Part shown: piece after piece, positions 17,463 to 64,000 of the stretch
Position numbering within the stretch: position 1 is the first letter of the stretch
Layout of the letters: the number at the start of each line of letters is the position of its first letter
Assembly: GCF_009828115.1 (NCBI RefSeq)
Contig: NZ_WTYL01000001.1
Span: forward strand, 1,054,001-1,118,000
Length of the DNA: 64,000 nucleotides
From: Allopontixanthobacter sediminis
GTDB taxonomy: Bacteria > Pseudomonadota > Alphaproteobacteria > Sphingomonadales > Sphingomonadaceae
Reading direction: 5' to 3'
Translations under genes and position numbers: made by a program
The notes under the pieces: model-generated
What the model was told of the DNA's origin: nothing
Database searches by the model: none
Seen by the model: only the letters and a program-made list of their open reading frames with translations

Positions 17463-17466
17463 CGTA

Positions 17467-21174: not shown

Positions 21175-21328
21175 GTCGGCAATTCCTCCCAAGTCCGTTC
21201 GGACAGGTTCTGTTATGATTTTGCGGTCTCCGTATCCCTGAATATCCCAGAGATTGCCAGCATCATCCCGCGTTCAAATAATCGGCCTTTTGCGCGCTTC
21301 CGTTTTGGTTCGAGGCGGACTATCCCTG

Positions 21329-45026: not shown

Positions 45027-46811
45027 CTAGTGGTTATGGCGCGGTAGCTTGCGGGCGGTCCCCCGGTATTTGAGCGAGAATTCCATTACCCCGCCCTCGC
45101 CCAGCTGGCCGGTCTTTTCGCGGAACAGCTCTTCCCAAGGCGTGTTGCTCGGCGGGATCGGCGGCGGGGGTTCGTCCGCCAGTCGGCGCGCAATTTCCGC
45201 ATTGTCGACGAGAGCGTTGCAGGTACGATGGTTCAGGTCGACCTGGATCCGGTCACCGGTTCGCAGCCACGCCAATCCACCGCCCGCCGCGCTCTCGGGC
45301 GAAACGTTGAGGATCGAGGGGCTGTCGCTGGTACCGGACTGACGTCCGTCGCCCAGCGTCGGCAGCCATTGCTTGCCTTGCTGGATCATGGCGTCGGGCG
45401 GCTGCATGTTGACGACCTCGGCACTGCCGGGCCAGCCGATTACGCCGGAACCACGGATGACTAGAATGCAGTCTTCGTCGATTTGGAGGGCCGGGTCGTT
45501 GATCCGGTGATGGTAATCGTCCGACCCATCGAACACGATCGCGCGGGCTTCGAACACATTTTCCGCGCCGGGGTGCGAGAGATACTGTGCCCGAAAATCA
45601 TCGCTGATGACCGAGGTCTTGAGAATGGCAAAGTCGAACAGATTGCCCGACAGCACCAGGAATCCGGCGTTATCCATCAGCGGATCGGCGAACGGCCGGA
45701 TCATCTCCCGGTCACCGCTCTCCCGGCCGCCGAGATTGTCCGCGATGGTCTTGCCGGTGCAGGTCGGGCAGTCTCCGTACAGGCGCCCCGCCTGAAGCAA
45801 TTCCCACATGATCGCCGGCACGCCGCCCGCGCGGTGGAACCGCTCGCCGAGATATTTGCCCGCCGGCTGCATGTTCAGCAGCAGCGGCAGTTCGTAGCCA
45901 TGATCCTGCCACGCCGAGAGCGGCAGTTCGACCCCGGCATGGGCCGCCATTGCCTGGATATGCGGCTGCGCATTGGATGATCCGCCGCAAGCGCTGACGA
46001 CCGCAATCGCGTTCAAAAAGGCCTCACGCGTCAGGATATCGGACGGCTTGAGATCTGCGTGGACCATTTCGACGATCCGCTGCCCGGTGCGGTAAGCCAT
46101 CTGGCCGCGCTCACGGTAGGGCGCCGGGATCGCCGCGCAGCCGGTTAGCGACAGGCCGAGCGCTTCGGCCACCGCGTTCATGGTGCTGGCCGTCCCCATA
46201 GAATTGCAATGTCCGGCGCTCGGCGCACTGTCGGTGGCACGGGCGAGGAATTCCTCTTCATCGATCTCGCCCGCCGCCAGCTTGCGGCGGCTGCGCCAGA
46301 TTACCGTACCGGAACCGACGAGCTCGCCTTCGTGCCAGCCGTCCAGCATCGGGCCGCCGCTGAGCACGATTGCAGGAATATCGACGGTGCTTGCCGCCAT
46401 GATCTGGCTGGGCGTGGTCTTGTCGCAGCCGGTGGTGAGGACCACCCCGTCGAGCGGATAGCCGTTGAGCAGTTCGACGAGGCCGAGATACAGCAAATTG
46501 CGATCGAGCGCGGCGGTGGGTCTGCGGCAGTTCTCGAAAATCGGATGGACCGGAAATTCGATCGGGATGCCGCCTGCGTCGCGAATGCCGTCGCGTGTCC
46601 GCTTGGCCAGTTCGATATGGATCCGGTTGCACGGCGAGAGGTCGCTCCCGCTTTGCGCGATGCCGATGATTGGCTTGCCGCTGCGCAGTTCTTCAGGCGT
46701 GATGCCGTAGTTCATGAACCGCTCGAGATAGAGCGCGGTCATGTCCATGCGGTCGGGATTGTCGAACCAGTCGCGCGAACGCAGCCGGCGACCGCCGGAA
46801 TCTGAGGTCAT
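45027..46811 (-). CDS. xylD: D-xylonate dehydratase (IlvD/Edd family)
   Basis: A 594-residue iron-sulfur dehydratase of the IlvD/Edd superfamily. The cluster-ligand cysteines are in L-S-P-C-N-R (C61), T-T-G-C-D-K-T-T-P (C129) and the S-A-G-H-C-N-S-M-G region; metal ligands lie in the D-x-x-x-x-C-P-T-C-T-G block. Length and the F-M-N-Y-G-I-T-x-E-E-L-R-S-G-K-P-I-I-G opening match the sugar-acid dehydratase branch (XylD, AraC-type) rather than IlvD. It converts D-xylonate to 2-keto-3-deoxy-xylonate. ATG 46811 overlaps the regulator gene stop by four bases, so both belong to one operon. L-arabinonate would be the alternative substrate. Confidence 0.92.
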   Translation of the reverse strand: MTSDSGGRRLRSRDWFDNPDRMDMTALYLERFMNYGITPEELRSGKPIIGIAQSGSDLSPCNRIHIELAKRTRDGIRDAGGIPIEFPVHPIFENCRRPTAALDRNLLYLGLVELLNGYPLDGVVLTTGCDKTTPSQIMAASTVDIPAIVLSGGPMLDGWHEGELVGSGTVIWRSRRKLAAGEIDEEEFLARATDSAPSAGHCNSMGTASTMNAVAEALGLSLTGCAAIPAPYRERGQMAYRTGQRIVEMVHADLKPSDILTREAFLNAIAVVSACGGSSNAQPHIQAMAAHAGVELPLSAWQDHGYELPLLLNMQPAGKYLGERFHRAGGVPAIMWELLQAGRLYGDCPTCTGKTIADNLGGRESGDREMIRPFADPLMDNAGFLVLSGNLFDFAILKTSVISDDFRAQYLSHPGAENVFEARAIVFDGSDDYHHRINDPALQIDEDCILVIRGSGVIGWPGSAEVVNMQPPDAMIQQGKQWLPTLGDGRQSGTSDSPSILNVSPESAAGGGLAWLRTGDRIQVDLNHRTCNALVDNAEIARRLADEPPPPIPPSNTPWEELFREKTGQLGEGGVMEFSLKYRGTARKLPRHNH

Positions 46812-47932
46812 TTTTTATCCGTATGATGCATTAGTGAAGGAGCGAGACTGGGCCCCGCGTCGGAATTGCGCCGCACCAGCTTGTAGGCCAGCGTGACCTG
46901 TTCGCACTTGGCCCTCGATGCGGGTGTCTTCTGTTTGTAGACCTTGGCAATCATCGCCACGGCCTGCGCCGTCATTTCCCGGATTGGCTGGCGAATGGTC
47001 GTAAGTTCGGGCCAGATCGAACTGGCAAGCTCGGTGTCATCGAAGCCGCATACGGTAATGTCGTTGGGGACATCGAGATGCCTGCGATGGGCCATAGCTA
47101 CGGTTGCGGCGGCCATGTCATCGTTCGAGGCGAAAATGGCAGTTGGCGGTCGGTCGACCGATAGCAGGCGCTCGGCTGCGGTCATGCCTGAGCGATAGGT
47201 GAACTGACCCTGGGCGATCAGGCTGTCACTGATTTCGAGACCGGCTTCGTTCATCGCGGCGCGGTAACCTTCGAGCCGCTGGCCGCTCGCCATCTGTTCC
47301 GGGTTGCCGATGATGAACCCGATCCGCTTATGGCCCAACCCGATGATGTGGCGGGTCATGTCGAAGGCCGCCTGGAATTCGTCGATCAGCACGGCACCAT
47401 GCGATCCGGTTGCGCGGCCGGGTCCGACGGCAACTGCAATTCCGCCAGAATCGCGGATCTGGTCGAGCACGCTTTGATCGTCGCACAGCGGCGGCGGCAG
47501 GATGAAACCGACAATCCCGCCATCGACCAGCTTGCTGATCAGCGTCTTGCTTTCCGGTACAGTCTCACAGCTCTGCACAACCAGGTGGATGTCGCGCTTG
47601 CTCGCTTCTTCGAGCGCACCCATCAGGAACTCGCTGAGATAGGATGCCGAGGGGTTATCGAACAGCAGGGCGATCCTGAGCTGCGCTCCGCCCGCCAACG
47701 AGCGCGCCGCGCGGTTGGGCACATAGTTGAGCTTATCAATGGCGGCCAGAACCTGCTCACGCGTGCCGGCCCGGACGTTTTCTTCACCGTTGATTACCCG
47801 GCTAACCGTCATCGGTGAGCATTCGGCTTCACGCGCGACGTCTGCGATCGTGGGAGCCGCGTTGCTGCGGCGAGAATTGCGTTTCCGGATTAATGGCCGG
47901 ATATCTTCCTTGGTGTCCATCTTCATCGCCAT
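46808..47932 (-). CDS. xylR: LacI-family repressor, candidate regulator of the locus
   Basis: A 374-residue LacI/PurR-type regulator. The helix-turn-helix P-T-I-A-D-V-A-R-E-A-E-C-S-P-M-T-V-S-R-V-I-N (residues 27-48) is followed by the hinge helix and a periplasmic-binding-protein-like effector domain with D-D-M-A-A-A-T. It probably binds the 14-bp palindromes seen throughout this locus and releases them on a xylose-related inducer. It lies in the operon GH67, regulator, xylD, so its own synthesis should be controlled by operator site 7. Three in-frame ATGs (47932, 47926, 47920) are possible starts, none with a clear ribosome site. The symbol is by analogy to Caulobacter XylR. Confidence 0.85.
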   Translation of the reverse strand: MAMKMDTKEDIRPLIRKRNSRRSNAAPTIADVAREAECSPMTVSRVINGEENVRAGTREQVLAAIDKLNYVPNRAARSLAGGAQLRIALLFDNPSASYLSEFLMGALEEASKRDIHLVVQSCETVPESKTLISKLVDGGIVGFILPPPLCDDQSVLDQIRDSGGIAVAVGPGRATGSHGAVLIDEFQAAFDMTRHIIGLGHKRIGFIIGNPEQMASGQRLEGYRAAMNEAGLEISDSLIAQGQFTYRSGMTAAERLLSVDRPPTAIFASNDDMAAATVAMAHRRHLDVPNDITVCGFDDTELASSIWPELTTIRQPIREMTAQAVAMIAKVYKQKTPASRAKCEQVTLAYKLVRRNSDAGPSLAPSLMHHTDKK

Positions 47933-47963: not shown

Positions 47964-50075
47964 TCATTGGCCGGGTGCCTCCGGAAATTCGAGCTTACGG
48001 TAATATTCGACGGAAAAGGGCGGCTTTGCCGTGCCTTCCGGCAGGGGCAGGCCGTTGACCGATTGCCAATAGGCTATGGAGGCGTCGCGCCACCAGCGGG
48101 CTTCGGTTTGCTGGATGGCGAGGCGTTCGGAAATTGCGCGAAACCTTTCCGGATCGATCTCGGATTCCAGGGCAGACCAGGTAGCTGCGAACCCGTCCAC
48201 CTTTGCCACGCCGCGGTCGTATTCCGCGACCAGCTCGTGCCACAGGGTCCGTCCGCTCGCCATTCGGTGATCCCAATCGACGCGGTGAAACCACAGGAGC
48301 AACTTCGGGTCGATAGCAGCGGGATCGCTCCACTGTGCGGCGATGGCGGGATCGTATTGGCTAATCGCGTTCGATCCACTGGGCGTCCGGTCGAACCCGA
48401 TGCCATCCCGGTCCGCCCGGTGATAATAGCACGGGTTCCATTCGGGCCGCGCCAAGTCACATACCCACGGCGCTGGTCCGTAGTGATGGCCGGTACCCAT
48501 CAGGTGCGCGAGGCCCAGAGGCGTCATGTACTGCACCACCGCTTCGCGGCTTTCCAGCATCATGCGCACGATGGGTTCAAGCGCCGCCGGCTTGCGGGTG
48601 AAGGTTTGCGCCGTCCATTCGCGCGCGATTGCATCGCTGGACATTGAAGGATTCCATGCCAGCCGGCCAAACGCGTACCAGTTTGCCTGGTCGAACACCG
48701 AACCACTCCAGTTCCGGTCCGATCCGGTGTTGGCGACACCCGCCATACCGACAGGCACGATAACATCGGCAACCGACTTTTCGCCGCCGGTGTCGGCGGT
48801 GAGCACTTCCTCCCACATCGGACCGAGGAAAGCGAGATGGCTGGCAAAACCGAGATATTCCTTGGTAATTTGCAATTCGAGCATCAGCCGGGTCTTCGGC
48901 ATCGCCCCGAACATCGGGTGGAACGGTTCGCGCGGCTGGAAATCGATAGGGCCGTTCTTGACCTGGACGATTACATTGTCCGCGAATTGTCCATCGAGCG
49001 GCTTGAATTCGTCATACGCCTGTTTGGCGCGATCGGTGTCGTCCTCTGCCGAGTAAACGAACGCGCGCCAGATCACCGTCCCGCGATCCCCCACGGCCTC
49101 CGCCATCATGTTCGCCCCGTCCGCATGGCTGCGGCCATAGTCCTGCGGGCCCGGCTGTCCTTCGCTGTTGGCCTTGACCAGGAAGCCGCCGAAGTCGGGA
49201 ATGGAAGCGTAGATCTCGTCGGTCTTGGCTTGCCACCACTGGCGAACCGCCGGGTCGAGCGGGTCGGCGGTGTCGAGCCCGCCGATGTCGCGCGGAGCAC
49301 TGAAACGGGCGGATACGTAAATTCTGATGCCATACGGCCGCCACGCATCGGCCAGCCGCTTGAGCTTGGCGATATAGCGCGGCTCCAGCATGAACGCGCG
49401 GGCGTTGACATTGTTGACCACGGCGCCGTTGATACCGATCGACGCATTCGCCCGAGCGTAGTCAATCATGCGTTGATCCAGCCGTCCAGGCAGGTTCCAC
49501 CAATCGAAGATCGAGCGTCCGGCATAGCCGCGCTCGACATGCCCATCGGGATTGTCCCAATGGTTGAGCAGCCGCAGCGGCATGGCTGGTGCGTCGATGA
49601 GACTTATTTCGCCCAGACCGCGACCCGCAGCCAGTTCGCGCAGGAGGGCATAGCTGCCGTAAAGGCAACCGATATGGTCCTGCGCAGCGATTCGGAATGT
49701 CGGGCGCTCCGCCTCAAGTTGCGGTGTCAGGCTGAACCCGGACTGGCCGGTGCCGGGCTCGGTGCCGCAATCGAGGATGATCTGGACCGGGTTCTGTGCC
49801 GGCGGGGGATCGCCCTCCCCCCGCAAACTGGTCAGCCCGCGCTCCAACTCTTCCACCGCCACGTCCAAGGTGGAGCTACGATCGCCCTCCGAAATGGGTG
49901 CGACGACCGGCGTCTGGCTCTTCAACTTAGCGGCAGCAACTCCGTCCAGCGGGGCGAACCGCAACCACAGATCGTACCCGTCTTCTGCGTAGGATGGCGT
50001 TGCCGAAAGGGCAATTACGACCAATACGGTGAATCGTGCGGCAAGCCGGTTGACAAGTTTGGTCCCTCTCATCAT
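47964..50075 (-). CDS. GH67 alpha-glucuronidase
   Basis: A 703-residue exported GH67 enzyme (Sec signal to about residue 30) that removes 4-O-methyl-glucuronic acid from the ends of xylo-oligosaccharides. Acid E305 lies in V-K-A-N-S-E-G-Q-P-G-P, and the paired carboxylates are D378 in N-G-P-I-D-F-Q and E406 in I-T-K-E-Y-L-G. Their spacing equals that recalled for Cellvibrio GlcA67A (E292, D365, E393), offset by 13. The start codon abuts the operator at 50075-50088 and no ribosome site precedes ATG 50075 or 50072. The next genes, regulator and xylD, follow with a 31-base gap. Confidence 0.95.
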   Translation of the reverse strand: MMRGTKLVNRLAARFTVLVVIALSATPSYAEDGYDLWLRFAPLDGVAAAKLKSQTPVVAPISEGDRSSTLDVAVEELERGLTSLRGEGDPPPAQNPVQIILDCGTEPGTGQSGFSLTPQLEAERPTFRIAAQDHIGCLYGSYALLRELAAGRGLGEISLIDAPAMPLRLLNHWDNPDGHVERGYAGRSIFDWWNLPGRLDQRMIDYARANASIGINGAVVNNVNARAFMLEPRYIAKLKRLADAWRPYGIRIYVSARFSAPRDIGGLDTADPLDPAVRQWWQAKTDEIYASIPDFGGFLVKANSEGQPGPQDYGRSHADGANMMAEAVGDRGTVIWRAFVYSAEDDTDRAKQAYDEFKPLDGQFADNVIVQVKNGPIDFQPREPFHPMFGAMPKTRLMLELQITKEYLGFASHLAFLGPMWEEVLTADTGGEKSVADVIVPVGMAGVANTGSDRNWSGSVFDQANWYAFGRLAWNPSMSSDAIAREWTAQTFTRKPAALEPIVRMMLESREAVVQYMTPLGLAHLMGTGHHYGPAPWVCDLARPEWNPCYYHRADRDGIGFDRTPSGSNAISQYDPAIAAQWSDPAAIDPKLLLWFHRVDWDHRMASGRTLWHELVAEYDRGVAKVDGFAATWSALESEIDPERFRAISERLAIQQTEARWWRDASIAYWQSVNGLPLPEGTAKPPFSVEYYRKLEFPEAPGQ

Positions 50076-52540: not shown

Positions 52541-54921
52541 AGCGGCGCGAGGCACTCCGCCTGATGGCCAGCGGCAGCTTGTCGGCGCTCGCGCTGGCGC
52601 AGTCACCTCTCGCCTTCGCTCAGGCGGGTGCCGCGCGCTACAAGGACGCGTCGGCGCCGCTGGCCGCGCGCGTGGCCGACCTGATGGCGCGGATGACGCT
52701 GGAAGAAAAGGTCGAGCAACTGCGCACGGCGTGGGCAGCCAAGGGTGACATGATTGACGGCCTCGCCTTCGATCCCACCAAGGCCAGCGCGGCGTTCCCC
52801 GACGGCATCGGCCACGTCACCCGCCCCAGTGACAAGCGCGGCGTTCCGGGCATCAGCGGCGCTGCAGGCGGCACCGCGGCGCGCTGGCGCACCCCGAAGG
52901 AAACGGTCGAATTCATCAACGCCCTGCAGCGATGGGCGACCAAGGATACCACGCTCGGCATTCCGGTGCTGGTCCACGAAGAATCCCTCCACGGATACAT
53001 GGCCACCGAGGCGACCATGTTCCCGCAGGCAATCGCCCTCGCCGGGAGCTTCGACAGCGACCTTATGCGGCGGGTCCAGTCGGTCATCGCGCGCGAAGTG
53101 CGGGCCCGCGGTGTCTCGTTCGTCCTCAGCCCGGTGGTCGATATCGTCCGCGACCCACGCTGGGGCCGGATCGAGGAAACCTGGGGTGAGGATCCCTACC
53201 TCGTCGGCGAAATGGGCGTCGCCGCGGTCGAGGGTCTGCAAGGTCCCGGCAAGTTCGAGAAACTGCCGGAAGGCAAGGTCTTCGCCACGCTGAAGCACAT
53301 GACCGGTCACGGCCAGCCCGAAGCCGGCAACAATATTTCCCCTGCCCAATTGTCCGAACGCGAATTGCGGGAGAATTTCTTCCCCCCGTTCCGCGAAATC
53401 GTCGCGCGGACCTCGGTAGGCGGGGTAATGCCCAGCTATAACGAGATCGACGGGATGCCGAGCCACGCCAGCACGTGGTTGCTGGGGAGTGTCCTGCGCG
53501 GCGAGTGGGGCTTCGACGGGATCATCGCCAGCGATTACGGCGGCGTCCACGAACTCGCGACACTGCACAAGGTCGCTACCGATCTTGAAGATGCCGCACG
53601 GCAAGCGCTCGAGGCCGGCGTCGATAGTGAACTGCCCGAGGGGATGGCATTCGCGACCCTTACGGATGCGGTTCGCGCAGGGCGGATTCCGCAGTCGCTG
53701 ATCGACACTGCCTGCGCACGGATGCTGACGCTCAAGTTCCGGGCCGGATTGTTCGAGAACCCGTACGGCGACTGGGACCTGACCCGCCGGATTACCGGCA
53801 ATGCTGAAGCCCGCGCCTTGGCGCTTGAGGCCGCTCGCAAGGGGCTGTGCCTGCTGACCAACCGCAACGATACACTGCCGCTGGACCGCAAAGCGGTCGG
53901 CCGGGTGGCAGTAATCGGTCCTAACCATGCCATCGCGCGGTTGGGCGGATATTCGAGCATTCCCAAGCAAACCGTAAGCCTGATCGAGGGTCTGCGCCAG
54001 ATCGCTCCCGGGGTCGATTTCGTCACCGCGCAGGGCGTGTTCATTACCACCAGCGAAGACCGTTCGCAGGACATCATCACGCTTGCCGACCGGGAAGAGA
54101 ACCTGCGGCTGATAGCCGAAGCGGTCGAAGTCGCGCGCGCCGCTGACACGATCATCGTTGCCATCGGCGATACAGAACAGACCAGCCGCGAAGGTTTTGC
54201 TGCCAACCATCTGGGCGACCGCACCGACATCGATATCGTCGGAGAACAGAACGCGTTGGTCGATGCACTGGCCGAACTTGGCAAACCGCTGATCGTGGCA
54301 GCCTACAATGGCCGCCCGCCAAGCTGGCCCAATGTGGTCGAGAAGGCCGATGCCGTTCTCGAATGCTGGTACCCCGGCCAGGAAGGTGGCACCGCCGTGG
54401 CGGAAGCTTTGTTTGGAATCGTAAATCCCGGTGCCAAAATGCCGGTTACCGTGGTTCGCAACGAAGGCCAGATCCCCTATTTCTACAACCATAAGCCGAG
54501 CGCCCGGCGCGGCTACCTATTCGACGACAAGGGACCGATGTTCGCCTTCGGCCACGGCCTGTCCTACACCAGCTTTGCTATTTCCGAGCCGCGCCCGGCG
54601 AAACGGTCGTTCCGGCGAGACGAGCCTATCGAGGTCTCGGCCACGGTGCGCAATACGGGCTCCCGCGAGGGCGACGAAGTGGTCCAATTGTATATCACGC
54701 GGACCGATGTTTCGGTCACCCGGCCCGTCCTCGAACTAAAGGGGTTCGAACGCGTCACGCTTGCCCCCAACGAGGAGCGCAGAGTCCGGTTCTTGATCGA
54801 ACCGCGGCACCTTGCCATCTGGAACCGCGACATGGCGGAAGTCAACGAACCGGGTCCGGTCAAGCTATCGGTTGGCAGCAGCAGCGCCAGCCTCAAATCC
54901 GTCGACGTGGAGATCGCATGA
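52537..54921 (+). CDS. GH3 beta-glucosidase/beta-xylosidase (second of tandem pair)
   Basis: A 794-residue GH3 enzyme, clearly a paralogue of the preceding gene: the same blocks K-H-M-T-G-H-G-Q-P-E-A-G-N-N, nucleophile in I-I-A-S-D-Y-G-G-V-H (D333) and I-G-D-T-E-Q-T-S-R-E recur in register. The signal differs: K-R-R-E-A-L-R-L-M-A-S-G is of Tat type, so it may be exported folded. ATG 52537 overlaps the upstream stop (ATGA); the longer frame to 52435 lies in the upstream gene. The stop at 54919-54921 is followed after one base by the GH10 start. The two paralogues may act on different linkages or chain lengths. Confidence 0.9.
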   Translation: MKRREALRLMASGSLSALALAQSPLAFAQAGAARYKDASAPLAARVADLMARMTLEEKVEQLRTAWAAKGDMIDGLAFDPTKASAAFPDGIGHVTRPSDKRGVPGISGAAGGTAARWRTPKETVEFINALQRWATKDTTLGIPVLVHEESLHGYMATEATMFPQAIALAGSFDSDLMRRVQSVIAREVRARGVSFVLSPVVDIVRDPRWGRIEETWGEDPYLVGEMGVAAVEGLQGPGKFEKLPEGKVFATLKHMTGHGQPEAGNNISPAQLSERELRENFFPPFREIVARTSVGGVMPSYNEIDGMPSHASTWLLGSVLRGEWGFDGIIASDYGGVHELATLHKVATDLEDAARQALEAGVDSELPEGMAFATLTDAVRAGRIPQSLIDTACARMLTLKFRAGLFENPYGDWDLTRRITGNAEARALALEAARKGLCLLTNRNDTLPLDRKAVGRVAVIGPNHAIARLGGYSSIPKQTVSLIEGLRQIAPGVDFVTAQGVFITTSEDRSQDIITLADREENLRLIAEAVEVARAADTIIVAIGDTEQTSREGFAANHLGDRTDIDIVGEQNALVDALAELGKPLIVAAYNGRPPSWPNVVEKADAVLECWYPGQEGGTAVAEALFGIVNPGAKMPVTVVRNEGQIPYFYNHKPSARRGYLFDDKGPMFAFGHGLSYTSFAISEPRPAKRSFRRDEPIEVSATVRNTGSREGDEVVQLYITRTDVSVTRPVLELKGFERVTLAPNEERRVRFLIEPRHLAIWNRDMAEVNEPGPVKLSVGSSSASLKSVDVEIA

Positions 54922-54922
54922 C

Positions 54923-56131
54923 ATGACCAAGGGTTTCGAAATTGATCGCAGGGGCACGCTTGCGGGGCTCGCCGCGATGTCTCTGGCTGCGTGCGGCGGC
55001 GGCGGTCAAAGCGGACCGGGTGCCTCGCCCCCGGTTTCCGCCCCTCCCCCTCCGCCAGGTCCGGTCGGTTTGCCGCAGCCCGGTTTGAACACGCTCGCCG
55101 TCCCCGGCAGCCGCAAGTTCGGCACCGCGATTGCCTCGGCCCCGGGCCGGAGCGAAGCCGCTTCAGTTCAGAATTCCCGCTATACCGACATCGTCAAAAG
55201 CGAATGCGGCATCGTGGTGCCCGAAAACGAAATGAAGTGGCAGGCCGTGCGGCCAAGCGCCGACGCCTATGATTTCAGACGAATGGACGAAATAGTGGCG
55301 TGGGCGCAGGCGAACAGCGTTGCAGTTCGCGGGCATACCCTGCTGTGGCACCGGCCGCAGTGGTTCCCCGCTTGGCTCAACACCTATGATTTTGGCGCCA
55401 ATCCGGTTGCGGAAGCCGAACGGATCCTGACCGAGCATATCCGTACCGTAACGCGCCGTTACCGCGGCGTGATCTCGAGTTACGACGTCGTCAACGAAGC
55501 GATCGACCATGATCGCAACGCTACCATCGAAACCAGCCTCAGCCGTGCGATGGGCAGCCCCGAGGCGGTGCTCGATCTCGCGTTTCGCACCGCCCGCGAG
55601 GAATTGCCGGACGGCCAGCTGGTTTATAACGACTACATGAGCTGGGAACCGGCGCACCGTGCTCATTGTGACGACGTGCTGCGGCTGCTCGAAGGGTTCC
55701 GCAAGCGCGGCACTCCGGTCGATGCGCTCGGTATCCAATCGCATATCGAGATGTTCTCGATCGATCCCGCAACCGGCGTCGGCCCCTATGCCGAGCGCGA
55801 ATGGCGGCAATTCCTCGATGAAGTTACCGGCATGGGATACCGTTTGCTGATCACCGAATTCGACGTCAAGGACAAGGCGCTCCCGGCTGACATCGCAATA
55901 CGCGACCAGAAAGTCGCCGAATTCACCCGGCGCTATTTCGACTTGATGCTGGAGCATGGCGATCATCTCGATGACATCCTCGCCTGGGGGATGGTCGACA
56001 AGTTCAACTGGTTGCAGGGTTTCGACCCCGCCAAACGGCCCGACGGCCTGGAAGTCCGCGGGACACCGTATGATTCCGATTATCGTCCCAAGCCGATGCG
56101 CGATGCGATCGCGGCGTCCCTGACCGCCTGA
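54923..56131 (+). CDS. GH10 endo-1,4-beta-xylanase, lipoprotein
   Basis: A 402-residue GH10 xylanase. Signal with lipobox L-A-A-C (C24), then a Gly/Ser/Pro linker to about residue 52 that would hold the catalytic barrel away from the membrane. Barrel motifs: E-N-E-M-K-W, G-H-T-L-L-W-H, acid/base in Y-D-V-V-N-E-A (E192), nucleophile in L-I-T-E-F-D-V (E312) and W-G-M-V-D-K-F-N-W. It cuts the xylan backbone and should act at the cell surface, giving oligosaccharides for the receptor and for GH67 and GH3. ATG 54923 starts one base after the upstream stop, with GGAG ten bases ahead. A hairpin terminator follows. Confidence 0.96.
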   Translation: MTKGFEIDRRGTLAGLAAMSLAACGGGGQSGPGASPPVSAPPPPPGPVGLPQPGLNTLAVPGSRKFGTAIASAPGRSEAASVQNSRYTDIVKSECGIVVPENEMKWQAVRPSADAYDFRRMDEIVAWAQANSVAVRGHTLLWHRPQWFPAWLNTYDFGANPVAEAERILTEHIRTVTRRYRGVISSYDVVNEAIDHDRNATIETSLSRAMGSPEAVLDLAFRTAREELPDGQLVYNDYMSWEPAHRAHCDDVLRLLEGFRKRGTPVDALGIQSHIEMFSIDPATGVGPYAEREWRQFLDEVTGMGYRLLITEFDVKDKALPADIAIRDQKVAEFTRRYFDLMLEHGDHLDDILAWGMVDKFNWLQGFDPAKRPDGLEVRGTPYDSDYRPKPMRDAIAASLTA

Positions 56132-56317: not shown

Positions 56318-59300
56318 TTAGAAGTTCGCACGCACGATGAGCGAGAAACGACGGTCGTTCATGAAGTACGAACGAGGCACCAGTTGGTCGGGATCGCCGC
56401 TGTAGGCCTGGGTCGTCTTGGTGACTTCGTTGAGCAGGTTCACACCCTGCGCACCAACACGGATATTTTCCGTGAGGTTGAAGAACACCGAGGCGTCCAA
56501 CTGTCCGGTCGGCTCGTTGAAGATCGAGTAGTACGGGAAGATCACGTCCGATGCGGTGAGCAGGAAGCGTGACCGCCAGTTATACGCGGCCCGCAGTGAA
56601 ATCGGACCCTTTTCATAGAACGCGCTGACGTTGAAGTTGTGCTTCGACAATTGCTCCAGTGGCAAGTTGCCGGGAGGAACCGTAGAGTCATTGGGCACCG
56701 CCCCGCCGTTCAGGAACGTGTTCGGGAGACCCGAACTGTCGATATAGGTGTAGTTCGCCGAACCACCGAGGCCGTTGAGCAAGCCCGGCAGGAAGTCGAA
56801 CGTTTGCTGGTAGGCAACTTCAAAGCCCTTGACCTTGCCGGTACCGTCGAAGTTGGCCGGACCGCGCACCGTGACATCGCGGGTTTCGCCGCTGCCGTTG
56901 GTGATTTGTTCCGTCCGCACCGACTGGAAGAAGAAGTTATCGATGCTCTTGTAGAAGGCGTTGAACGTGAGCGAGCCGACCGGCGCAAAGTACCATTCGA
57001 GGCTGGCGTCGAACTGCCAGGCTGTCGCCGGATCAAGCGTAGGATCGCCCGCCGTACCGGTGAAGTTGCCCGACGTATCGATGCTGGATGTGAAGTAGTT
57101 CCGGATGTAGCCATTGTCTGGCCGTGTCAGCACCTTCGATACGGCGAAGCGCAGGATGAGCTCGTCGCTAAGGCCGAACTTCACGTTCAGGCTTGGCAGC
57201 AGATAATCATAGCTGTGCTTGACGTTGGTCTGTTCAAGACTGCCATCGACGAAATTCTGCAGCGAGACATAAGCCGCCTCGCCGATGTTGCAGATGCCGC
57301 CCGGTACTGCGGTGCCGCCGCCAGCCGCTGGCGGCCGGTTACGGGGCGCGCAGCGTACGGAGAACGGATCAGCGATGTTCAGACCGCCTACTGTGCCCGG
57401 CGAACGAACGCCTTGCGAGCGAACGTCGGTCTTGACCCAGCGAACTCCGATATTGCCGGTCAGGCGGACATCACCGAACAAGTCGTCGCTGCCGAAGTTG
57501 AGCATCGCGTAGGCAGCAGAATCGTACTGCTTCACCGTCTGGATGTCGGTTGGCAGGTAGGGCGAACCGTCAACCGTACCACCACGCGCGGCAAGCGGGT
57601 TCCAGCTTGGTGAGGCACCCAGTGCCCGCGCACGGTCCTGGACCGATTGGAAATAATCCACCGAACCTTCGTAATCACCGATCAGGTCACCGGCGTAATA
57701 GAATGCCCCCGGAGGTCCGGGAACCTGATTGCGGAAGAAGTCCGGGAACTCGTAGCGCTCTTGCTGTCCATCAGCTTCGGTATCGCCAAAATTGACCGGA
57801 CGGCTGCCCGACCACACTTCACTGAGCATACCCCAGTTGTACGTGGTGTAGCGGACTTCCTGCTCGCGGCCTTGGTAGCGCGCGCCGAACTTGGCACGGC
57901 GGATGAAGGAATCTTCGTCGAATTCATAATCGAGGTCAGCCCGGAACGCGAACTGATCGCCCTTGCTGTCTTCGGCGTGATCCATCGCCGCGCGCCAGAA
58001 TTGGAACCGCGGATCGGTGAAGTATTCCGCATCCGTTGCTCCTGCCAGTGCAGCACCCGGTGTCGACCAGTCGTATCCCAGGAACTGCGGCTTGTGCGGG
58101 ATCACGATGGGCAGATCGCCCGAGATATCCAGTTCGGAATCGGCAAAACTCGAACCGAAAACACTGAAATCGAGATTTTCCTTGCGCGAGTTTGCATACT
58201 GGCCGTCGAGCGTGATTTTCGCCCGATCCGTCAACTGGTGCTCCAACCGGAGGCTGTAATCGGTGTTGGTGGTTTCATCCAGCACCTGACGGCGAGCCAG
58301 CGAGTATTGCGAACCGCCGATGGGAACGAATGGTGACGCCGCCGGATCGCCGCGCCAGCCATTGCTGGCGTCAACGATATAGCCGGACTGGAAGACGTTG
58401 TTCTCGTCATAGACGAAATCGGTGAAACCACCGACCGGGCACTGCGCGCGCGGCGGAGTTTCGTCGTTGGGATCGATTACGCCGCCGCTGTCGACCACGT
58501 TCGGGCCGTTGGCGTTCTGCTGGCAGCCGATCGGATAAGTCGAATATTCGGTAAGGTCCGGCGCGGCTTCATAGGTATATTCGCCCCACGCGTTGGTGGT
58601 GTGCGAGCGGATGAATTCCGCCGTGACCATGGTGCGCTCGTCGAGACTTTCCCACTGCGCCGAGACGGCGATACCGTCACGCTTGCGGTTGAATTCCTGC
58701 GTACGGAACTGGCCGCCCACAGGAGCGACGCGGAAGTCGGCATAATCGGCAAAACCGTCTGCGCCGGCAGCGCCGAAATTACCGCAGGCCGCATTTGGCG
58801 GCGGCAGGGTCGTGGTGTCGGAACCCGATGGCAAGGGATTGCGGCAAATGAAACGGTCGCCGGTGTTGGCCGCCCGCACGGACTGTCCGTCACGAATCTG
58901 GTAGTTCGCGATCTGTAAACCGTCGGCGCGGCTCTTGATCTGTGAATAGGCGCCGCTGACCAGCAGGCCGATCCGGCCAATTCCGGTGTCCCACTGGTTG
59001 CTGATCAGGCCCGAAATGGTCGGAGTCCATTCCTTGGCCATATCACCGTAGTTGGCTTCCGCGCTGAGCGCGATCTTGAAGCCCTTGTTGTCGAATGGCT
59101 TGCGGGTGTTGAGATTGACCGTCCCGGCGAGCCCGCCTTCGATCATGTCGGCGGTCGAGTTCTTCGAGATCACCACCGAGCCGAGCAGTTCGGAGGGAAC
59201 ATCGGCAAAGTTCAGCGCTTGCCCGCCGACACCAGCGGCGAAGGCCGTACGGCCGTTGAATTCCGAGCGAACGAAGTTGAGGCCGCGAACGACAACACCG

Positions 59301-59698
59301 GAACCTTCGACAGAGAAGTGGTCCGGATCGTTCGAACCAGCGAAGCGGTTGATCGCGATCCCGGGAACGCGCTGCAGCGCCTCGGTCACCGAACGGTCAG
59401 GAAGTGCGCCGATGTCTTCGGCAGTGATAGCATCGACGACGGTGTCGGCATCACGCTTGATATCCTGGGCCTTCGCAAGCGATTGGCGGATGCCGCTGAC
59501 GACAATGACGTTACCGAGATCGTCCGAAGCCGGCTCGGCTTCTTCGGTACCGGCCGGCTGCGCATCCTGCGCATGGGCTGTCTGCCCAGCCATGAACCCG
59601 GTGACCACGATGGCCGACACACTGGTCCGCAACAACGTTTTCAGCAGGTGGTCACACCCCCCGCCAGTCCCCGAACGATTAAACGCTGATTTGATCAT
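56318..59698 (-). CDS. TonB-dependent outer-membrane receptor for oligosaccharides
   Basis: A 1126-residue receptor with a long signal (to about residue 44, A-H-A-Q), a TonB-box-like stretch near N-V-I-V-V-S-G-I-R, and a plug with T-E-A-L-Q-R-V-P-G-I-A-I-N-R-F and G-S-G-V-V-V-R-G-L. The barrel fills the rest and ends in F, as outer-membrane proteins do (R-F-S-L-I-V-R-A-N-F). Sphingomonad receptors of this size in loci of this kind import plant-polysaccharide oligosaccharides with energy from TonB. ATG 59698 has GGGAGGGG seven bases upstream. Operator site 8 begins 17 bases before the start. It is divergent from the halogenase operon. The substrate, probably xylo- or xyloglucan-oligosaccharides, is inferred. 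Confidence 0.93.
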   Translation of the reverse strand: MIKSAFNRSGTGGGCDHLLKTLLRTSVSAIVVTGFMAGQTAHAQDAQPAGTEEAEPASDDLGNVIVVSGIRQSLAKAQDIKRDADTVVDAITAEDIGALPDRSVTEALQRVPGIAINRFAGSNDPDHFSVEGSGVVVRGLNFVRSEFNGRTAFAAGVGGQALNFADVPSELLGSVVISKNSTADMIEGGLAGTVNLNTRKPFDNKGFKIALSAEANYGDMAKEWTPTISGLISNQWDTGIGRIGLLVSGAYSQIKSRADGLQIANYQIRDGQSVRAANTGDRFICRNPLPSGSDTTTLPPPNAACGNFGAAGADGFADYADFRVAPVGGQFRTQEFNRKRDGIAVSAQWESLDERTMVTAEFIRSHTTNAWGEYTYEAAPDLTEYSTYPIGCQQNANGPNVVDSGGVIDPNDETPPRAQCPVGGFTDFVYDENNVFQSGYIVDASNGWRGDPAASPFVPIGGSQYSLARRQVLDETTNTDYSLRLEHQLTDRAKITLDGQYANSRKENLDFSVFGSSFADSELDISGDLPIVIPHKPQFLGYDWSTPGAALAGATDAEYFTDPRFQFWRAAMDHAEDSKGDQFAFRADLDYEFDEDSFIRRAKFGARYQGREQEVRYTTYNWGMLSEVWSGSRPVNFGDTEADGQQERYEFPDFFRNQVPGPPGAFYYAGDLIGDYEGSVDYFQSVQDRARALGASPSWNPLAARGGTVDGSPYLPTDIQTVKQYDSAAYAMLNFGSDDLFGDVRLTGNIGVRWVKTDVRSQGVRSPGTVGGLNIADPFSVRCAPRNRPPAAGGGTAVPGGICNIGEAAYVSLQNFVDGSLEQTNVKHSYDYLLPSLNVKFGLSDELILRFAVSKVLTRPDNGYIRNYFTSSIDTSGNFTGTAGDPTLDPATAWQFDASLEWYFAPVGSLTFNAFYKSIDNFFFQSVRTEQITNGSGETRDVTVRGPANFDGTGKVKGFEVAYQQTFDFLPGLLNGLGGSANYTYIDSSGLPNTFLNGGAVPNDSTVPPGNLPLEQLSKHNFNVSAFYEKGPISLRAAYNWRSRFLLTASDVIFPYYSIFNEPTGQLDASVFFNLTENIRVGAQGVNLLNEVTKTTQAYSGDPDQLVPRSYFMNDRRFSLIVRANF

Positions 59699-59714: not shown

Positions 59715-59728
59715 TGTTAGCGCTACCA
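59715..59728. promoter_or_regulatory. Predicted LacI/XylR-type operator, site 8 (TGTTAGCGCTACCA)
   Basis: A 14-bp copy with a TTAGCGCTAC core, directly upstream of the receptor ribosome site (59706-59713) and 17 bases before ATG 59698. It places receptor synthesis under the same control as the enzymes. It is 141 bases from the halogenase start, so an effect on that operon is possible. Confidence 0.8.
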
Positions 59729-59868: not shown

Positions 59869-61470
59869 ATGGCAGGGATAAATGGTATCGGTACCGCGAA
59901 ACGCATTTCGCGCGTCGTCATTGTCGGTGGCGGTACCGCGGGTTGGATGGCCGCGGCTGCCATGTCCCGTTTCTTCAACGATGGCCAGCGAACGATAACG
60001 CTGATCGAATCGGACGCGATCGGGATCGTCGGCGTCGGCGAAGCGACCATTCCGCCCATTCGCAGTTTCAACGCGATGCTCGATATTCCCGAGAACGAAT
60101 TTCTCCGCGCCACCAAGGGCACTTATAAACTGGGCATCGAGTTCGTGAATTGGGGCCGACAAGGTGACCGTTACTTCCATCCATTCGGCGGTTATGGTCA
60201 AGATCTGCACGGTATCCAGTTCCACCACCTGTTCCTGAGGGAAGCGGCAAGAGCGGCAGGGACGAACGGCATCAGCCCTGATATCGGGCATTTCTCAATG
60301 TGCACCATGGCGGCGCACGCAGGCCGGTTTGCCCGTCCTTCGGCGGGCGCGCAGTCGCTGGTTTCGCAGATCGCCTACGCCTATCATTTCGACGCAAGCC
60401 TCTATGCGGCCCACTTGCGCCAACTGGCCGAGCGTCAGGGAACCGTGCGTCTCGAGGGGCGGATCGTGAAAGTCCACCGCGACGGCGAAAGCGGCGACGT
60501 CACTTCCGTCCAGCTGGAAGACGGTAGGCTTGTCGAAGGCGAATTGTTCGTCGACTGCTCCGGCTTTCGCGGCTTGCTGATCGAGGAAGCGCTCGAAACG
60601 GGGTATGACGACTGGAGTCACTGGTTGCCCATGGACCGGGCCATTGCGGTGCCGACTGCGAACATTGGCTCCCCCGATCCCTTCACCCGCTCCACCGGGC
60701 ATGCCGCGGGCTGGCAGTGGCGCATTCCACTGCAACACCGGACCGGAAACGGCCACGTCTTCTCCAGCGGGTTCATGGACGAAGACACAGCCCGCGATGT
60801 TCTCCTGGCCAATCTTGAAGGCGAACCGCTGCAGGAACCGCGCACACTTCGCTTCCTTACTGGCATGCGGCGCAAGGCATGGAACCACAACGTGATTTCC
60901 CTCGGGCTTTCATCGGGCTTTATCGAGCCGCTGGAATCGACCAGTATCCACCTGATCCAGAACGGCATTGCGCGGCTGTTCGCGCTTTTCCCCGATAATC
61001 CGATCAGTCCGATAGAACGCGACGAATACAATCGCGGGATGAAGGAACTCTACGAGGATGTACGGGACTTCATCATCCTCCATTACAAGGCTACGCAGCG
61101 AGACGACACCGCGTTCTGGCGCTATGTCCGGGACATGGAAGTACCCGCGTCTCTTGCCCGCAAGATCGAGTTGTGGCGGCTGCACGGGCGGATATTTCGC
61201 GAGAATGCCGAATTGTTCGTCGCCCCCAGCTGGATCGCCGTGATGCTAGGACAGAACATCTGGCCGCAAGCGTACGATCCGATCGCCGACACCCTCGACG
61301 AACAGAAGGTGGCGGCTGCGATGGAACAGATGCGGGACGCCTACCGGGATATCGCGGCCAAGCTGCCGACCCACGAAGAATTCATCCGCCAATCAGGCGG
61401 GTGGCACGACGCACCGACAGCCCAGCCCCCTTCCCCCGGACCATTCGCCGCCCAGGCTGCGGCGCGATGA
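59869..61470 (+). CDS. Flavin-dependent tryptophan halogenase-like protein (first of pair)
   Basis: A 533-residue flavoprotein of the tryptophan-halogenase family. FAD loop G-G-G-T-A-G-W (residues 20-26), the G-V-G-E-A-T-I-P block, the candidate catalytic lysine in T-Y-K-L-G-I-E-F (K87), the W-x-W-x-I-P motif in W-Q-W-R-I-P-L (W282, W284) and the E-S pair in L-E-S-T-S-I-H-L (E356, S357) are all kept, so it is probably active or binds FAD normally. Substrate is unknown; the locus contains no indole or secondary-metabolite genes. GGGGGAG lies just before ATG 59869; upstream frame to 59815 is disfavoured. The last bases overlap the second halogenase gene. No signal peptide, so cytoplasmic. Confidence 0.9.
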   Translation: MAGINGIGTAKRISRVVIVGGGTAGWMAAAAMSRFFNDGQRTITLIESDAIGIVGVGEATIPPIRSFNAMLDIPENEFLRATKGTYKLGIEFVNWGRQGDRYFHPFGGYGQDLHGIQFHHLFLREAARAAGTNGISPDIGHFSMCTMAAHAGRFARPSAGAQSLVSQIAYAYHFDASLYAAHLRQLAERQGTVRLEGRIVKVHRDGESGDVTSVQLEDGRLVEGELFVDCSGFRGLLIEEALETGYDDWSHWLPMDRAIAVPTANIGSPDPFTRSTGHAAGWQWRIPLQHRTGNGHVFSSGFMDEDTARDVLLANLEGEPLQEPRTLRFLTGMRRKAWNHNVISLGLSSGFIEPLESTSIHLIQNGIARLFALFPDNPISPIERDEYNRGMKELYEDVRDFIILHYKATQRDDTAFWRYVRDMEVPASLARKIELWRLHGRIFRENAELFVAPSWIAVMLGQNIWPQAYDPIADTLDEQKVAAAMEQMRDAYRDIAAKLPTHEEFIRQSGGWHDAPTAQPPSPGPFAAQAAAR

Positions 61471-63002
61471 AAAATTCGCCAATCCGCAAGGTCGTGATCG
61501 TGGGCGGCGGCACCGCGGGCTGGATGGCGGCGGCGGGACTGTCGCGGGTCCTCGGCGCGCTTCCGGGGCTGAGTATTACCCTGATCGAAAGCGAAGCGAT
61601 CGGCACAGTCGGAGTCGGCGAAGCCACCATTCCGCAAATTACCGCGTTCAACCGCCTGATCGGTCTCGACGAGATGGCGTTCATGCGCGAAACCCGGGCA
61701 ACTTACAAACTGGGCATCGAATTCGTCGACTGGCTACGGCCGGGCCATTCCTACGTCCATCCCTTTGGTTCGTTCGGTCTGGATATGCTGGGGATCGAAT
61801 TCCAGCATTTTTGGCTGCGCGGACGGGAACTGGGCGATACCGCGGCAATCGACAGTTACTCGATCGCTGCGGTCGCCGGGAAGTCCGGTAAATTCACGTG
61901 GCCGCAGCCCGACAACCGCAAATCGCCGCTTTCAAAGCTGTCCTACGCCTTCCAGTTCGATGCCGGACGTTACGCGAAGTTTTTGCGTGGTCTGTCCGAA
62001 CAGGCCGGTGTTCGCCGGGTCGAAGGGCGCGTGGTGGAGGTTCTTCAGCATCCCGAAAGCGGCTTTGTCACTGGATTGAAGCTGGATGACCAAACGGAAG
62101 TAGAAGGTGAATTGTTCATCGACTGCTCCGGCTTCCGTTCGCTGCTCCTGGGCCAGACACTGGGCGTCCCGTTCAATGATTGGTCACGCTGGTTGCCGTG
62201 CGACAGCGCGGTCGCGATCCCGTGCGAACTTGGCGGGGCGAACGAACCGCTGACTCGTTCCACCGCGCGCTCGGCGGGCTGGCAGTGGCGCATTCCGCTG
62301 CAACATCGCATCGGCAACGGGCATGTGTTTTCCTCGGCGCATATGGACGGCGAAGCGGCGACCGACATGTTGCTTGCCAACCTTGACGGCAAGCCGCTGG
62401 CGGAACCGAACCGTCTCAGTTTCACTGCGGGCCACCGGGCTCGGGCATGGGAAAAAAACGTAGTAGCGCTGGGGCTTGCCGGCGGCTTCCTGGAACCGCT
62501 CGAATCGACTTCGATACATCTCGTCCAATCCGGCATCGCCCGCTTGTTATCCTTGTTTCCCGACAGCGGTTTCAGCGAGGTTGAAATCGGGCGTTACAAC
62601 GACGAGACCGAGCGGGAATATGTCGACATCCGCGACTTCCTGTTGCTTCACTACTCGGCGACCGAGCGCGACGATTCCGAATTCTGGCGCTATTGCCGTA
62701 ACCTCGAACCGACCGACGGACTGGCCGAAAAGATCGAAATGTTTCGGAGTTCCGGGCGGATATTCCGGGAACATAACGAGCTTTTCACGGAGGCCAGCTG
62801 GCTTTCGGTAATGCTCAGTCAGGGGATCAGCCCGCAGCGGTATCATCCTGCGGCCAGATTGCTCGACGACGCGGAGACGCTCGCCCGCCTCGGCAATATT
62901 CGCGGGGCAATTCGCAACACTGCCGACCAGCTGCCTTCCCAGTCCGACTTCCTGAGCGAGCGCGGCGGAACGATTGCCGCCAGCGAACGGCTGACCGCGT
63001 GA
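61467..63002 (+). CDS. Flavin-dependent tryptophan halogenase-like protein (second of pair)
   Basis: A 511-residue paralogue of the preceding protein, with the same motifs in order: G-G-G-T-A-G-W, G-V-G-E-A-T-I-P, the lysine in T-Y-K-L-G-I-E-F (K81), W-Q-W-R-I-P-L (W272, W274) and L-E-S-T-S-I-H-L (E346, S347). The proteins have drifted over most of their length, so duplication was not recent. ATG 61467 overlaps the upstream TGA; the same GTGA/ATGA style of overlap links it to the cupin-like gene after it, which starts at GTG 62999. The three gene products are probably made in fixed ratio. A separate flavin reductase would be needed and is not in the window. Confidence 0.9.
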   Translation: MKNSPIRKVVIVGGGTAGWMAAAGLSRVLGALPGLSITLIESEAIGTVGVGEATIPQITAFNRLIGLDEMAFMRETRATYKLGIEFVDWLRPGHSYVHPFGSFGLDMLGIEFQHFWLRGRELGDTAAIDSYSIAAVAGKSGKFTWPQPDNRKSPLSKLSYAFQFDAGRYAKFLRGLSEQAGVRRVEGRVVEVLQHPESGFVTGLKLDDQTEVEGELFIDCSGFRSLLLGQTLGVPFNDWSRWLPCDSAVAIPCELGGANEPLTRSTARSAGWQWRIPLQHRIGNGHVFSSAHMDGEAATDMLLANLDGKPLAEPNRLSFTAGHRARAWEKNVVALGLAGGFLEPLESTSIHLVQSGIARLLSLFPDSGFSEVEIGRYNDETEREYVDIRDFLLLHYSATERDDSEFWRYCRNLEPTDGLAEKIEMFRSSGRIFREHNELFTEASWLSVMLSQGISPQRYHPAARLLDDAETLARLGNIRGAIRNTADQLPSQSDFLSERGGTIAASERLTA

Positions 63003-64000
63003 CTGACCGAGCCGCGCCCAACACAATTCCCGATGCCGATGCCGCGATTGATGCCGCGAGCTTTGCAGAGATCCGGCGAAACGTCCGCCCGGTAATAATG
63101 CGGCAGTTGGTCGGTGACTGGCCGGCCGTGGAAGCGGGGCGGCAGGGTGATGCGTCGATCGTGCGCTACCTCGGCGAGATCGGTAGCGCGCGGCCGGTAT
63201 CCGCGATTGCAGCATCGCCCGGTGAAGGCGGACGTTTCTTCTACACGCCCGACCTTACCGGCCTCAATTTTGTCAGCGGACAGGGCCGGCTGGAAATGTT
63301 TCTCGAAGATTTGCTGCGCGCCGCCGAAGTATCGGACCCACCGGCCATGGCGGTGCAATCCGAAGACATCGCCAGTCTGCTGCCACGGTTCGCCGACGAA
63401 AACCGGCTCGCGATCCTGCCGCAAGTCGCACCAAAGATCTGGATCGGTAACCGCATTCGCGTCGCCCCGCATTACGACGGGAAGGAGAACGTCGCCTGCT
63501 GCGTGGCGGGGCGGCGCCGCTTCACGCTATTTCCGCCCGATCAGATCGGGAATCTCTACCCCGGACCGTTTGAACTGACCCCGGCGGGCACTCCGGTGAG
63601 CATGGTCGACTTAGCCGAACCTGACGAGGAAGCGCACCCGCGATTTGCCGAGGCCTGGCGTCATGCGGCACAGGCCACGCTGGATCCGGGCGATGCAATT
63701 TATATCCCCTATGGTTGGTGGCACGGCGTCGAATCGCTTGAACCGGTCAGCATCCTGGTCAATTACTGGTGGACGCAGGACGTACCTGATGGCCTGACCA
63801 GCCCCTATGTCGGTCTGCTTCACGCATTGCTCACGTTCAAGCACCTCCCGCCGGAACAGCGCGACGTGTGGCGCGAGATGGTGAATTACTACGTGTTCGA
63901 ACAGCAGGGCGATCCCGCTGCGCATCTCCCCGATCATGCCAAGGGGGTCCTCGGTCCGCCTTCTCCGGCGCTGTTCGCACAAATGCACGAGATGATCCGT
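62999..64000 (+). CDS. Cupin-like (JmjC-related, cupin_8) protein, 3' end outside window
   Basis: Open from GTG 62999 to the window end, 334 codons, without a stop. The sequence is related to the gene at 33012: R-R-N-V-R-P-V-I-M-R, G-R-F-F-Y-T-P-D, the iron ligands H158 and D160 in A-P-H-Y-D-G-K-E-N, R-R-R-F-T-L-F-P-P, P-G-D-A-I-Y-I-P and a distal His (H242) in G-W-W-H-G. Ligand spacing from first to last histidine is 84 residues in both. The GTG overlaps the stop of the second halogenase gene. A paralogue next to halogenases and one in the enzyme region suggest a shared, unknown oxygenase-type role. Only a few residues can be missing. Confidence 0.82.
   Translation, partial: MTDRAAPNTIPDADAAIDAASFAEIRRNVRPVIMRQLVGDWPAVEAGRQGDASIVRYLGEIGSARPVSAIAASPGEGGRFFYTPDLTGLNFVSGQGRLEMFLEDLLRAAEVSDPPAMAVQSEDIASLLPRFADENRLAILPQVAPKIWIGNRIRVAPHYDGKENVACCVAGRRRFTLFPPDQIGNLYPGPFELTPAGTPVSMVDLAEPDEEAHPRFAEAWRHAAQATLDPGDAIYIPYGWWHGVESLEPVSILVNYWWTQDVPDGLTSPYVGLLHALLTFKHLPPEQRDVWREMVNYYVFEQQGDPAAHLPDHAKGVLGPPSPALFAQMHEMIR

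Follow-up and report, generated by a model that had tools for sequence, protein, structure and literature searches.

A Receptor-Partner Cassette of BrvH-Type Halogenase Genes and a JmjC-like Oxygenase Gene in a Xylan Locus of Allopontixanthobacter sediminis

We analyzed a stretch of 64,000 nucleotides from Allopontixanthobacter sediminis (contig NZ_WTYL01000001.1, positions 1,054,001 to 1,118,000; hereafter the window), the last 8 kb of which hold a TonB-dependent receptor gene on the minus strand (56318-59698) and, divergent from it, three plus-strand genes in series. Two of these encode the halogenase-like flavoproteins Hal1 (59869-61470) and Hal2 (61467-63002), and the third, which runs from 62999 to about 64015 and so past the window end, encodes a predicted Cupin_8/JmjC-like Fe(II)/2-oxoglutarate (2OG) oxygenase. 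That the three genes form a receptor-partner cassette of a xylan locus is well supported by the comparisons below. The partnership with the receptor is evident from gene neighborhoods and lineage trees, and from it we infer that the receptor is the target. We assign a probability of roughly 0.4 to the reading in which enzymes dedicated to the partner receptor mature it by halogenating or hydroxylating a peptide-bound Trp, and we are just as tentative about the broader claim that, whatever the chemistry, the substrate is the receptor.

The 1126-residue receptor matches TIGR01782 (TonB-Xanth-Caul) with 659 bits against a cut-off of 310, Hal1 and Hal2 are full-length PF04820 matches of 634 and 620 bits, and the third protein matches Cupin_8 with 213 bits. 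Both junctions within the cassette are 4-bp overlaps, ATGA at 61467 between Hal1 and Hal2 and GTGA at 62999 between Hal2 and the Cupin_8 gene. A first-pass annotation, made from the letters of the DNA, had described two halogenase-like genes and a cupin-like gene divergent to a TonB receptor, stop/start overlaps joining the three genes, and flavoproteins that both keep the lysine, the Glu-Ser pair, and the WxWxIP motif. The family matches, the two junctions, and the motifs read in Hal1 and Hal2 agree with this description throughout.

Linkage of Halogenase Genes to TonB-Dependent Receptors

The same annotation noted that such genes recur beside TonB receptors, and the neighborhoods proved the association to be stronger than claimed; the outcome that it had named as refuting, co-occurrence at chance level, did not materialize. 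Of 26 halogenase clusters in 25 Sphingomonadales genomes, counting A. sediminis, 23 lie no more than 3 kb from a TIGR01782 receptor, versus 0.54 expected. The eight full-length PF04820 genes of A. sediminis group into four loci, each gene no farther than 8 kb from one of the nine TIGR01782 receptors that exceed the cut-off; a ninth, weak PF04820 match (19 bits, 58 positions) was left uncounted. When other receptor families are admitted as well, a receptor is found within 4 kb of a halogenase gene at 4/4 loci of A. sediminis, 20/21 loci of the order sample, 71/79 loci of named genomes, and 16/20 loci of the phylum set, to which a genome of the order contributes one locus (L271). The named-genome loci are the best 80 of at least 579 relatives and so stand near the A. 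sediminis proteins; they number 79, not 80, because the halogenase row of L181 was lost to overlap removal. In these loci, TonB receptor, SapC, Cupin_8, PF13759, and DUF6445 genes were recognized mostly by home-made profiles built from 2 to at most 150 sequences. The loci that lack a receptor are L114, L260, L269, L270, and L271, together with eight named ones (L137, L145, L167, L168, L177, L188, L189, and L196), and these eight are stretches of 4.7 to 16.9 kb ended by contig ends, with a receptor fragment at the edge of L168.

The converse count, which starts from the receptor, agrees. Among 118 Sphingomonadales genomes, searched for receptors and halogenases with identical settings and in equal genome numbers, the halogenase family is present in 38 of the 38 genomes with a window-type receptor versus 38 of the 80 others (Fisher 8.6e-10). 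At least 43 of the 49 window-type receptors in these genomes (split matches merged by eye) have a halogenase gene within 1 kb, 36 of these divergent; a further four have one within 3.5 kb, and two were not determinable. In the phylum sample of 150 genomes, compared by eye, all eight genomes with a window-type receptor have the halogenase family versus 7 of the 142 others, and 3 of 13 window-type receptors there stand without a nearby halogenase gene (two in G054, one in G146). At L103 (G016:C50) and at L171, a distinct TonB receptor family is surrounded by three to four halogenase genes.

Halogenase lineages have also remained linked with receptor lineages over the long term. In a tree of 148 halogenase genes and two references, five receptor types are distributed with 9 changes, as compared with 54.6 when shuffled. 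Among the 101 rows from named genomes, receptor type changes 6 times (shuffled 36) and taxonomic class 17 times (shuffled 29), which shows that the halogenases track receptor type across alpha-, beta-, and gammaproteobacteria. This tree leaves out open reading frames (ORFs) shorter than 440 residues, overlaps of more than 100 bases with a better match, and receptors outside the five types, and Hal2 was dropped; the 101-row count additionally leaves out five degenerate or truncated rows and loci outside the named genomes, and its class labels include two rows from a probably mislabeled "Arthrobacter" record. L139, filed under "Arthrobacter sp. TPD3018", is a sphingomonad-like receptor-halogenase locus, and the genome is probably mislabeled. 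In a FastTree phylogeny of 108 receptors, the label of halogenase association changes 4 times versus 25 when shuffled, a result that is supportive rather than unbiased because the sample was partly drawn via halogenases. Receptors below 800 residues or 400 bits were left out of it, as were non-partnered receptors at the edge of a locus, except those taken as controls; two genomes without a PF04820 match at 1e-20 supplied four additional control receptors, each with only some 1.5 kb of flanking sequence.

The partner receptors adjoin genes for different glycans, which leaves the receptor as the constant element of these loci. The window carries glycoside hydrolase (GH) families GH10 and GH67 for xylan, L010 carries GH3 and a LacI regulator, and L012 carries two GH13 genes and a GH97 gene for starch. 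A third, non-TIGR01782 receptor group has GH42 (L186), GH32 (L206), or a LacI gene (L195) nearby; a sucrose-type assignment of this group was dropped, since its loci hold GH32, GH42, or neither. A neighbor tally in other genomes, covering 104 of 344 candidate ORFs and the 25 commonest Pfam families, returned amylases, major facilitator superfamily proteins, LacI regulators, glucokinase, and assorted GHs, with a ceiling of 8 of the 104 for any one family. Biosynthetic families are absent from those 25, and the idea of a natural-product cluster was rejected.

Halogenase Sequences

GxGxxG, the catalytic lysine (YKLGI), the Glu-Ser pair (EPLESTS), and WQWRIP are all preserved in Hal1 and Hal2, and the four features are intact in 132 of the 150 rows of the halogenase tree. 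The best PDB matches of the two proteins are BrvH (6frl) and Xcc4156 (6y1w), at about 490-520 bits, with 9luq also returned, and the next Trp halogenases score at most 293 bits. By sequence score, Hal1 and Hal2 are nearer to BrvH and Xcc4156 than to RebH, PrnA, or PyrH, and their intact motifs predict that they are active as BrvH-type flavin-dependent halogenases. Both depart from the Fx.Px.Sx.G motif of canonical Trp halogenases, with serine for glycine at the halide-site position. This serine is present in 129 of the 150 tree rows, and BrvH likewise has it (PMC7336383). No export signal was seen at the halogenase N-termini, as judged by eye without a signal-peptide program.

Directly past the window end come two further PF04820 genes, which converge on the cupin gene. 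Hal4 (about 64000-65469; L009:10001-11470) is degenerate, having lost the catalytic lysine, the Glu-Ser pair, and WxWxIP, and is possibly a non-catalytic partner, while Hal3 (about 65466-67082) has the checked motifs intact. Degenerate halogenase rows that resemble Hal4 occur at L101, L105, and L139.

The Cupin_8 Protein and Other Oxygenase-like Partners

In the Cupin_8 protein, the HxD...H iron triad (H158, D160, H242) and R173 show no variation across all 14 sequences aligned. Its structural model, with a predicted local distance difference test score (pLDDT) of 82, has the JmjC double-stranded beta-helix fold. The nearest folds are JMJD5 (Z 26.2; root-mean-square deviation 2.1 Å over 224 residues), TYW5 (25.6), FIH (at most 23.7), and JMJD7 (at most 22.7), and Foldseek places FIH first; K214 of FIH is Arg in the window protein. 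Several of these four proteins are protein hydroxylases, and TYW5 is an RNA hydroxylase. The model makes a protein substrate for the window cupin plausible, and the JmjC fold is no proof of one because TYW5 is about equally near.

A 2OG-type partner of the halogenases is recurrent, not general: a halogenase gene has a Cupin_8, PF13759, or DUF6445 gene no more than 4 kb away at 2/4 loci of A. sediminis, 9/21 of the order, 20/79 of the named genomes, and 4/20 of the phylum set. SapC-Cupin_8-halogenase operons follow other receptors at L011, L258, and L266-L268. TPR-2OG-FeII_Oxy_5 (PF13759) proteins adjoin a halogenase and a non-TIGR01782 receptor at L186 (11498-12856), L195 (8484-9980), and L206 (8543-9973) by Pfam, and at more loci by a home-made model. 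DUF6445 genes adjoin SapC/halogenase genes at L260 (11101-11805, by Pfam) and L258 (12021-12734, by a home-made profile). From an HxD...H read by eye, DUF6445 looks like a 2OG oxygenase; it returned no PDB match, and the models matched by SapC and DUF6445 carry no assigned biochemistry. A second SapC gene of A. sediminis (L272, G000:C1:513378) stands near genes for a flavin adenine dinucleotide-linked oxidase and an N-formylglutamate amidohydrolase, with no TIGR01782 match within 45 kb.

Conserved Tryptophans of Partnered Receptors

In the receptor alignment, the column of W629 is invariant in 44 of 44 window-clade rows and in 5 of 5 SapC-clade rows, as compared with a frequency of 0.04 in non-partnered rows, and W622 reaches 0.95 in the window clade. 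A separate invariant Trp marks the starch clade (30/30; 0.25 in non-partnered rows). The contexts are mostly NWG...W in the window clade, G[DN]WG in 4 of 5 SapC-clade rows, and, for most starch-clade rows, GW with G, S, or N as the next residue; the third receptor group has W-G in 7 of 7 rows, five of them as GYNN.WG. All four partnered groups tested possess an invariant Trp, and Gly is usually the next residue. No Trp column is conserved in four divergent non-partnered sets of 5-8 rows. The motif [NDG]W[GSN] is present in 78 of 80 partnered versus 9 of 28 non-partnered rows, a comparison in which kinship is ignored, and Trp residues per receptor average 8.3, 12.1, and 16.1 for none, one, and several halogenases. 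An AlphaFold2 model of the receptor (pLDDT 78.7) places W622 and W629 in a loop of about 100 residues (618-718) flanked by strands 599-617 and 719-737. From its length, the modeled loop is probably extracellular.

The Xylan Locus and Its Palindrome

The window encodes GH10, GH67, GH43, GH31, two GH5, and four GH3 enzymes, a LacI-family regulator, an IlvD/EDD-type dehydratase, and an aldose epimerase. The presence of GH67 marks it as a glucuronoxylan locus. The GH10 endo-xylanase gene (54812-56131, plus strand) adjoins the receptor gene; the GH67 alpha-glucuronidase gene (47964-50075) and the LacI-family gene (46808-47932) are on the minus strand. A second Cupin_8 gene (33012-34019, plus strand) lies within the xylan locus between GH3 and GH5 genes with no receptor adjoining, and its membership of the receptor-partner system is unproven. 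Adjoining the xylan locus, at 16302-21192, are genes for two thiolases, a CoA-transferase, and an acyl-CoA dehydrogenase, and an FAA-hydrolase gene at 38041 was assigned to xylonate breakdown.

The interval between the receptor and Hal1 genes contains the palindrome TGTTAGCGCTACCA (59715-59728), a XylR-type operator candidate for which the LacI-family protein is the candidate binder. This is an exact copy of a pattern, TGKTAGCGCTAMCA, that occurs 8 times in the window at up to 2 mismatches versus 0.31 expected in shuffles. Of 10 sites in the genome with at most 1 mismatch, six are in the window, one is directly past it, and one (C2:146139) is directly upstream of the receptor gene in a TonB receptor-SapC-Cupin_8-halogenase operon. 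Similar palindromes occupy the receptor-halogenase interval at several of the related loci compared (L098, L101, L149, and L166 among them), not at all of them. It is the clustering in the window, and nothing else about the palindrome, that stands out. In Caulobacter and Xanthomonas, a 20-bp palindrome lies upstream of xylose-regulon and receptor genes (PMC1790865), and we infer that the window palindrome is probably this xylose-type operator.

Proposed Receptor Maturation and Its Alternatives

Taken together, the linkage data suggest to us that the enzymes mature their partner receptor. The first-pass annotation had named a protein in the uptake machinery as one possible target; of its two suggested roles this one fits the data best, and it stands as a proposal. 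They would act in the cytoplasm on the unfolded receptor precursor, before Sec export, a location we propose because the N-termini show no export signal by eye. With reduced flavin adenine dinucleotide (FADH2), O2, and halide, the halogenases would halogenate an exposed peptide-bound indole, most likely that of a conserved loop Trp in a W-G context, which here would be W622/W629; as the modified site, this pair is a guess. The cupin would hydroxylate a different receptor residue, and the modification would tune an extracellular glycan-binding loop of the receptor. It is more doubtful that all of this describes a widespread proteobacterial system, in which receptor lineages with their own halogenases, joined at some loci by a 2OG oxygenase, would have receptor residues halogenated and hydroxylated, notably the Trp of the W-G loop.

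Several points weigh against receptor maturation. The case for modification is a genomic one, and an oxygenase-like partner (Cupin_8, PF13759, or DUF6445) is close to the halogenase at a minority of loci. Aromatic residues in receptor loops often bind sugars, an ordinary reason for such Trp residues to be conserved. Three small non-partnered sets hold invariant Trp residues (4, 1, and 2); the receptor L250_8887 keeps WNWGVISDDW without an adjacent halogenase gene (the family is present elsewhere in its genome), and W[GSN] is missing altogether from the partnered receptors at L253 and L259. When phylogeny is controlled for, the comparison of the Trp motif has four independent pairs, too few for significance. 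The enrichment in Trp was rejected as proof, since His, Met, and Cys rise as well in partnered receptors and receptor clades confound the count. The idea that halogenase number sets the number of conserved Trp residues was likewise abandoned: invariant Trp residues number 8 and 7 in two clade C sets with one halogenase each, and 5 in the ten xylan-type rows with several. Finally, the genome-wide total of 10 palindrome sites is unremarkable because a reversed-pattern control gives nearly as many (8).

Among the alternatives, a small halogenated molecule, such as a haloindole or a modified peptide, could be made as a signal or weapon and co-expressed with polysaccharide feeding. BrvH and Xcc4156 do accept free indole and its derivatives (PMC5945002, PMC7336383). 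The low activity on indole, however, made the BrvH authors doubt that it is the native substrate (PMC5945002), the sampled neighbors lack any biosynthetic family among their 25 commonest, and such a product leaves the tracking of receptor type by halogenase lineages unexplained. We regard this alternative as unlikely.

The target could instead be another protein of the uptake path, such as a TonB/ExbB partner or a periplasmic or surface glycan-binding protein. Genetic evidence cannot separate the receptor from its cargo or partner, and SapC travels in some cassettes. Against this, the ceiling of 8 in 104 sampled neighbors for any of the commonest Pfam families compares with a receptor at 71 of 79 loci, and we judge such a target to be unlikely as well.

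It is also conceivable that the flavoenzymes hydroxylate, rather than halogenate, a protein-bound Trp in the manner of QhpG, which dihydroxylates peptidyl Trp (PMC7876137). Hal1, Hal2, and Hal3 have weak matches to the QhpG family, and oxygenase-like enzymes adjoin some of these halogenases, both of which fit this chemistry. The matches amount to 19-26 bits, however, far under the family cut-off of 240, and place the three proteins outside that family. The Lys/Glu pair and WxWxIP, a motif suggested to block monooxygenase activity (PMC5945002), are intact in Hal1 and Hal2, as are the four checked features in most of the tree. Indole is brominated by BrvH but not by the K83A mutant of this enzyme (PMC5945002). 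QhpG-like hydroxylation therefore appears improbable to us.

Least probable is the other role offered by the first-pass annotation, halogenation or oxidation of an aromatic part of lignin-linked xylan imported by the receptor: the glucuronoxylan locus (GH10, GH67, GH43, GH3, GH5) invites it, and the FAA-hydrolase and thiolase/CoA-transferase genes leave it some room, but partner receptors sit in loci for different glycans, with related halogenases in an equal position in starch (GH13, GH97), GH3 plus LacI, and GH42/GH32 loci, the N-termini lack an export signal by eye, and no clear aromatic-ring gene was found among the flanking window proteins scanned, a subset of the ORFs.

If receptor maturation holds, it would be a new kind of maturation for such proteins, the orphan BrvH and Xcc halogenases would gain a native substrate, and, to our knowledge, this would be the first dedicated halogenation of a membrane transporter. 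A halogenated receptor would mean a new protein modification in nutrient uptake and a natural protein halogenase for biocatalysis. The tight linkage to receptor lineages makes the native-substrate question directly testable on a named receptor. Even with another target, many genes annotated as tryptophan halogenases in these bacteria would belong to glycan uptake, not to natural products.

Comparison with Known Systems

The enzyme family, the CUT (carbohydrate utilization containing TonB-dependent receptor) loci, and the idea of a peptide substrate are in print already. The first-pass annotation had called this the best candidate in the window for an undescribed system; that may hold for the receptor link, which was not found in the literature searched, and not for the enzymes, since BrvH and Xcc4156 have been expressed and crystallized (PMC7336383, PMC5945002). 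Among the matches listed, from a body of literature that leaves out most subscription journals, there was no paper tying these halogenases to TonB receptors, and neither the intergenic palindrome nor 2OG oxygenase partners of halogenases were found there. A paper on N-acetylglucosamine utilization in Xanthomonas reportedly may list SapC, Pass1, and halogenase genes.

BrvH and Xcc4156 are active on indole and its derivatives and not on free Trp, and they have short loops and an open active site (PMC7336383, PMC5945002). A peptide substrate has been proposed for BrvH-type enzymes, credited to Neubauer et al. 2018; for BrvH and the Xcc halogenases, the native substrates are said to "remain unknown" (PMC7336383). 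These enzymes share with Hal1 and Hal2 the lysine, the Glu-Ser pair, WxWxIP, and the serine after EPLEST. A link to receptor lineages, an intergenic palindrome, and a JmjC-like partner are absent from the accessible sections of both accounts, and "TonB" has 0 occurrences in their main texts (PMC5945002, PMC7336383).

The CUT loci of Xanthomonas and Caulobacter combine a receptor, degradative enzymes, and a regulator (PMC1790865), and the window likewise holds a TonB receptor, GHs, and a sugar regulator. A palindrome stands upstream of their xylose-regulon and receptor genes, and there is conservation from Xcc to Caulobacter; the main text of that account never mentions "halogenase", "SapC", "Pass1", or "cupin" (PMC1790865). 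QhpG is a halogenase-like flavoprotein that acts on Trp within a protein, as proposed here (PMC7876137). It is a monooxygenase, structurally nearest to CmlS (PMC7876137), and Hal1 and Hal2 match its family with only 19-21 bits. On the oxygenase side, FIH, JMJD5, JMJD7, and TYW5 have the fold and the HxD...H in common with the window cupin, which differs from them in being bacterial and in adjoining a receptor.

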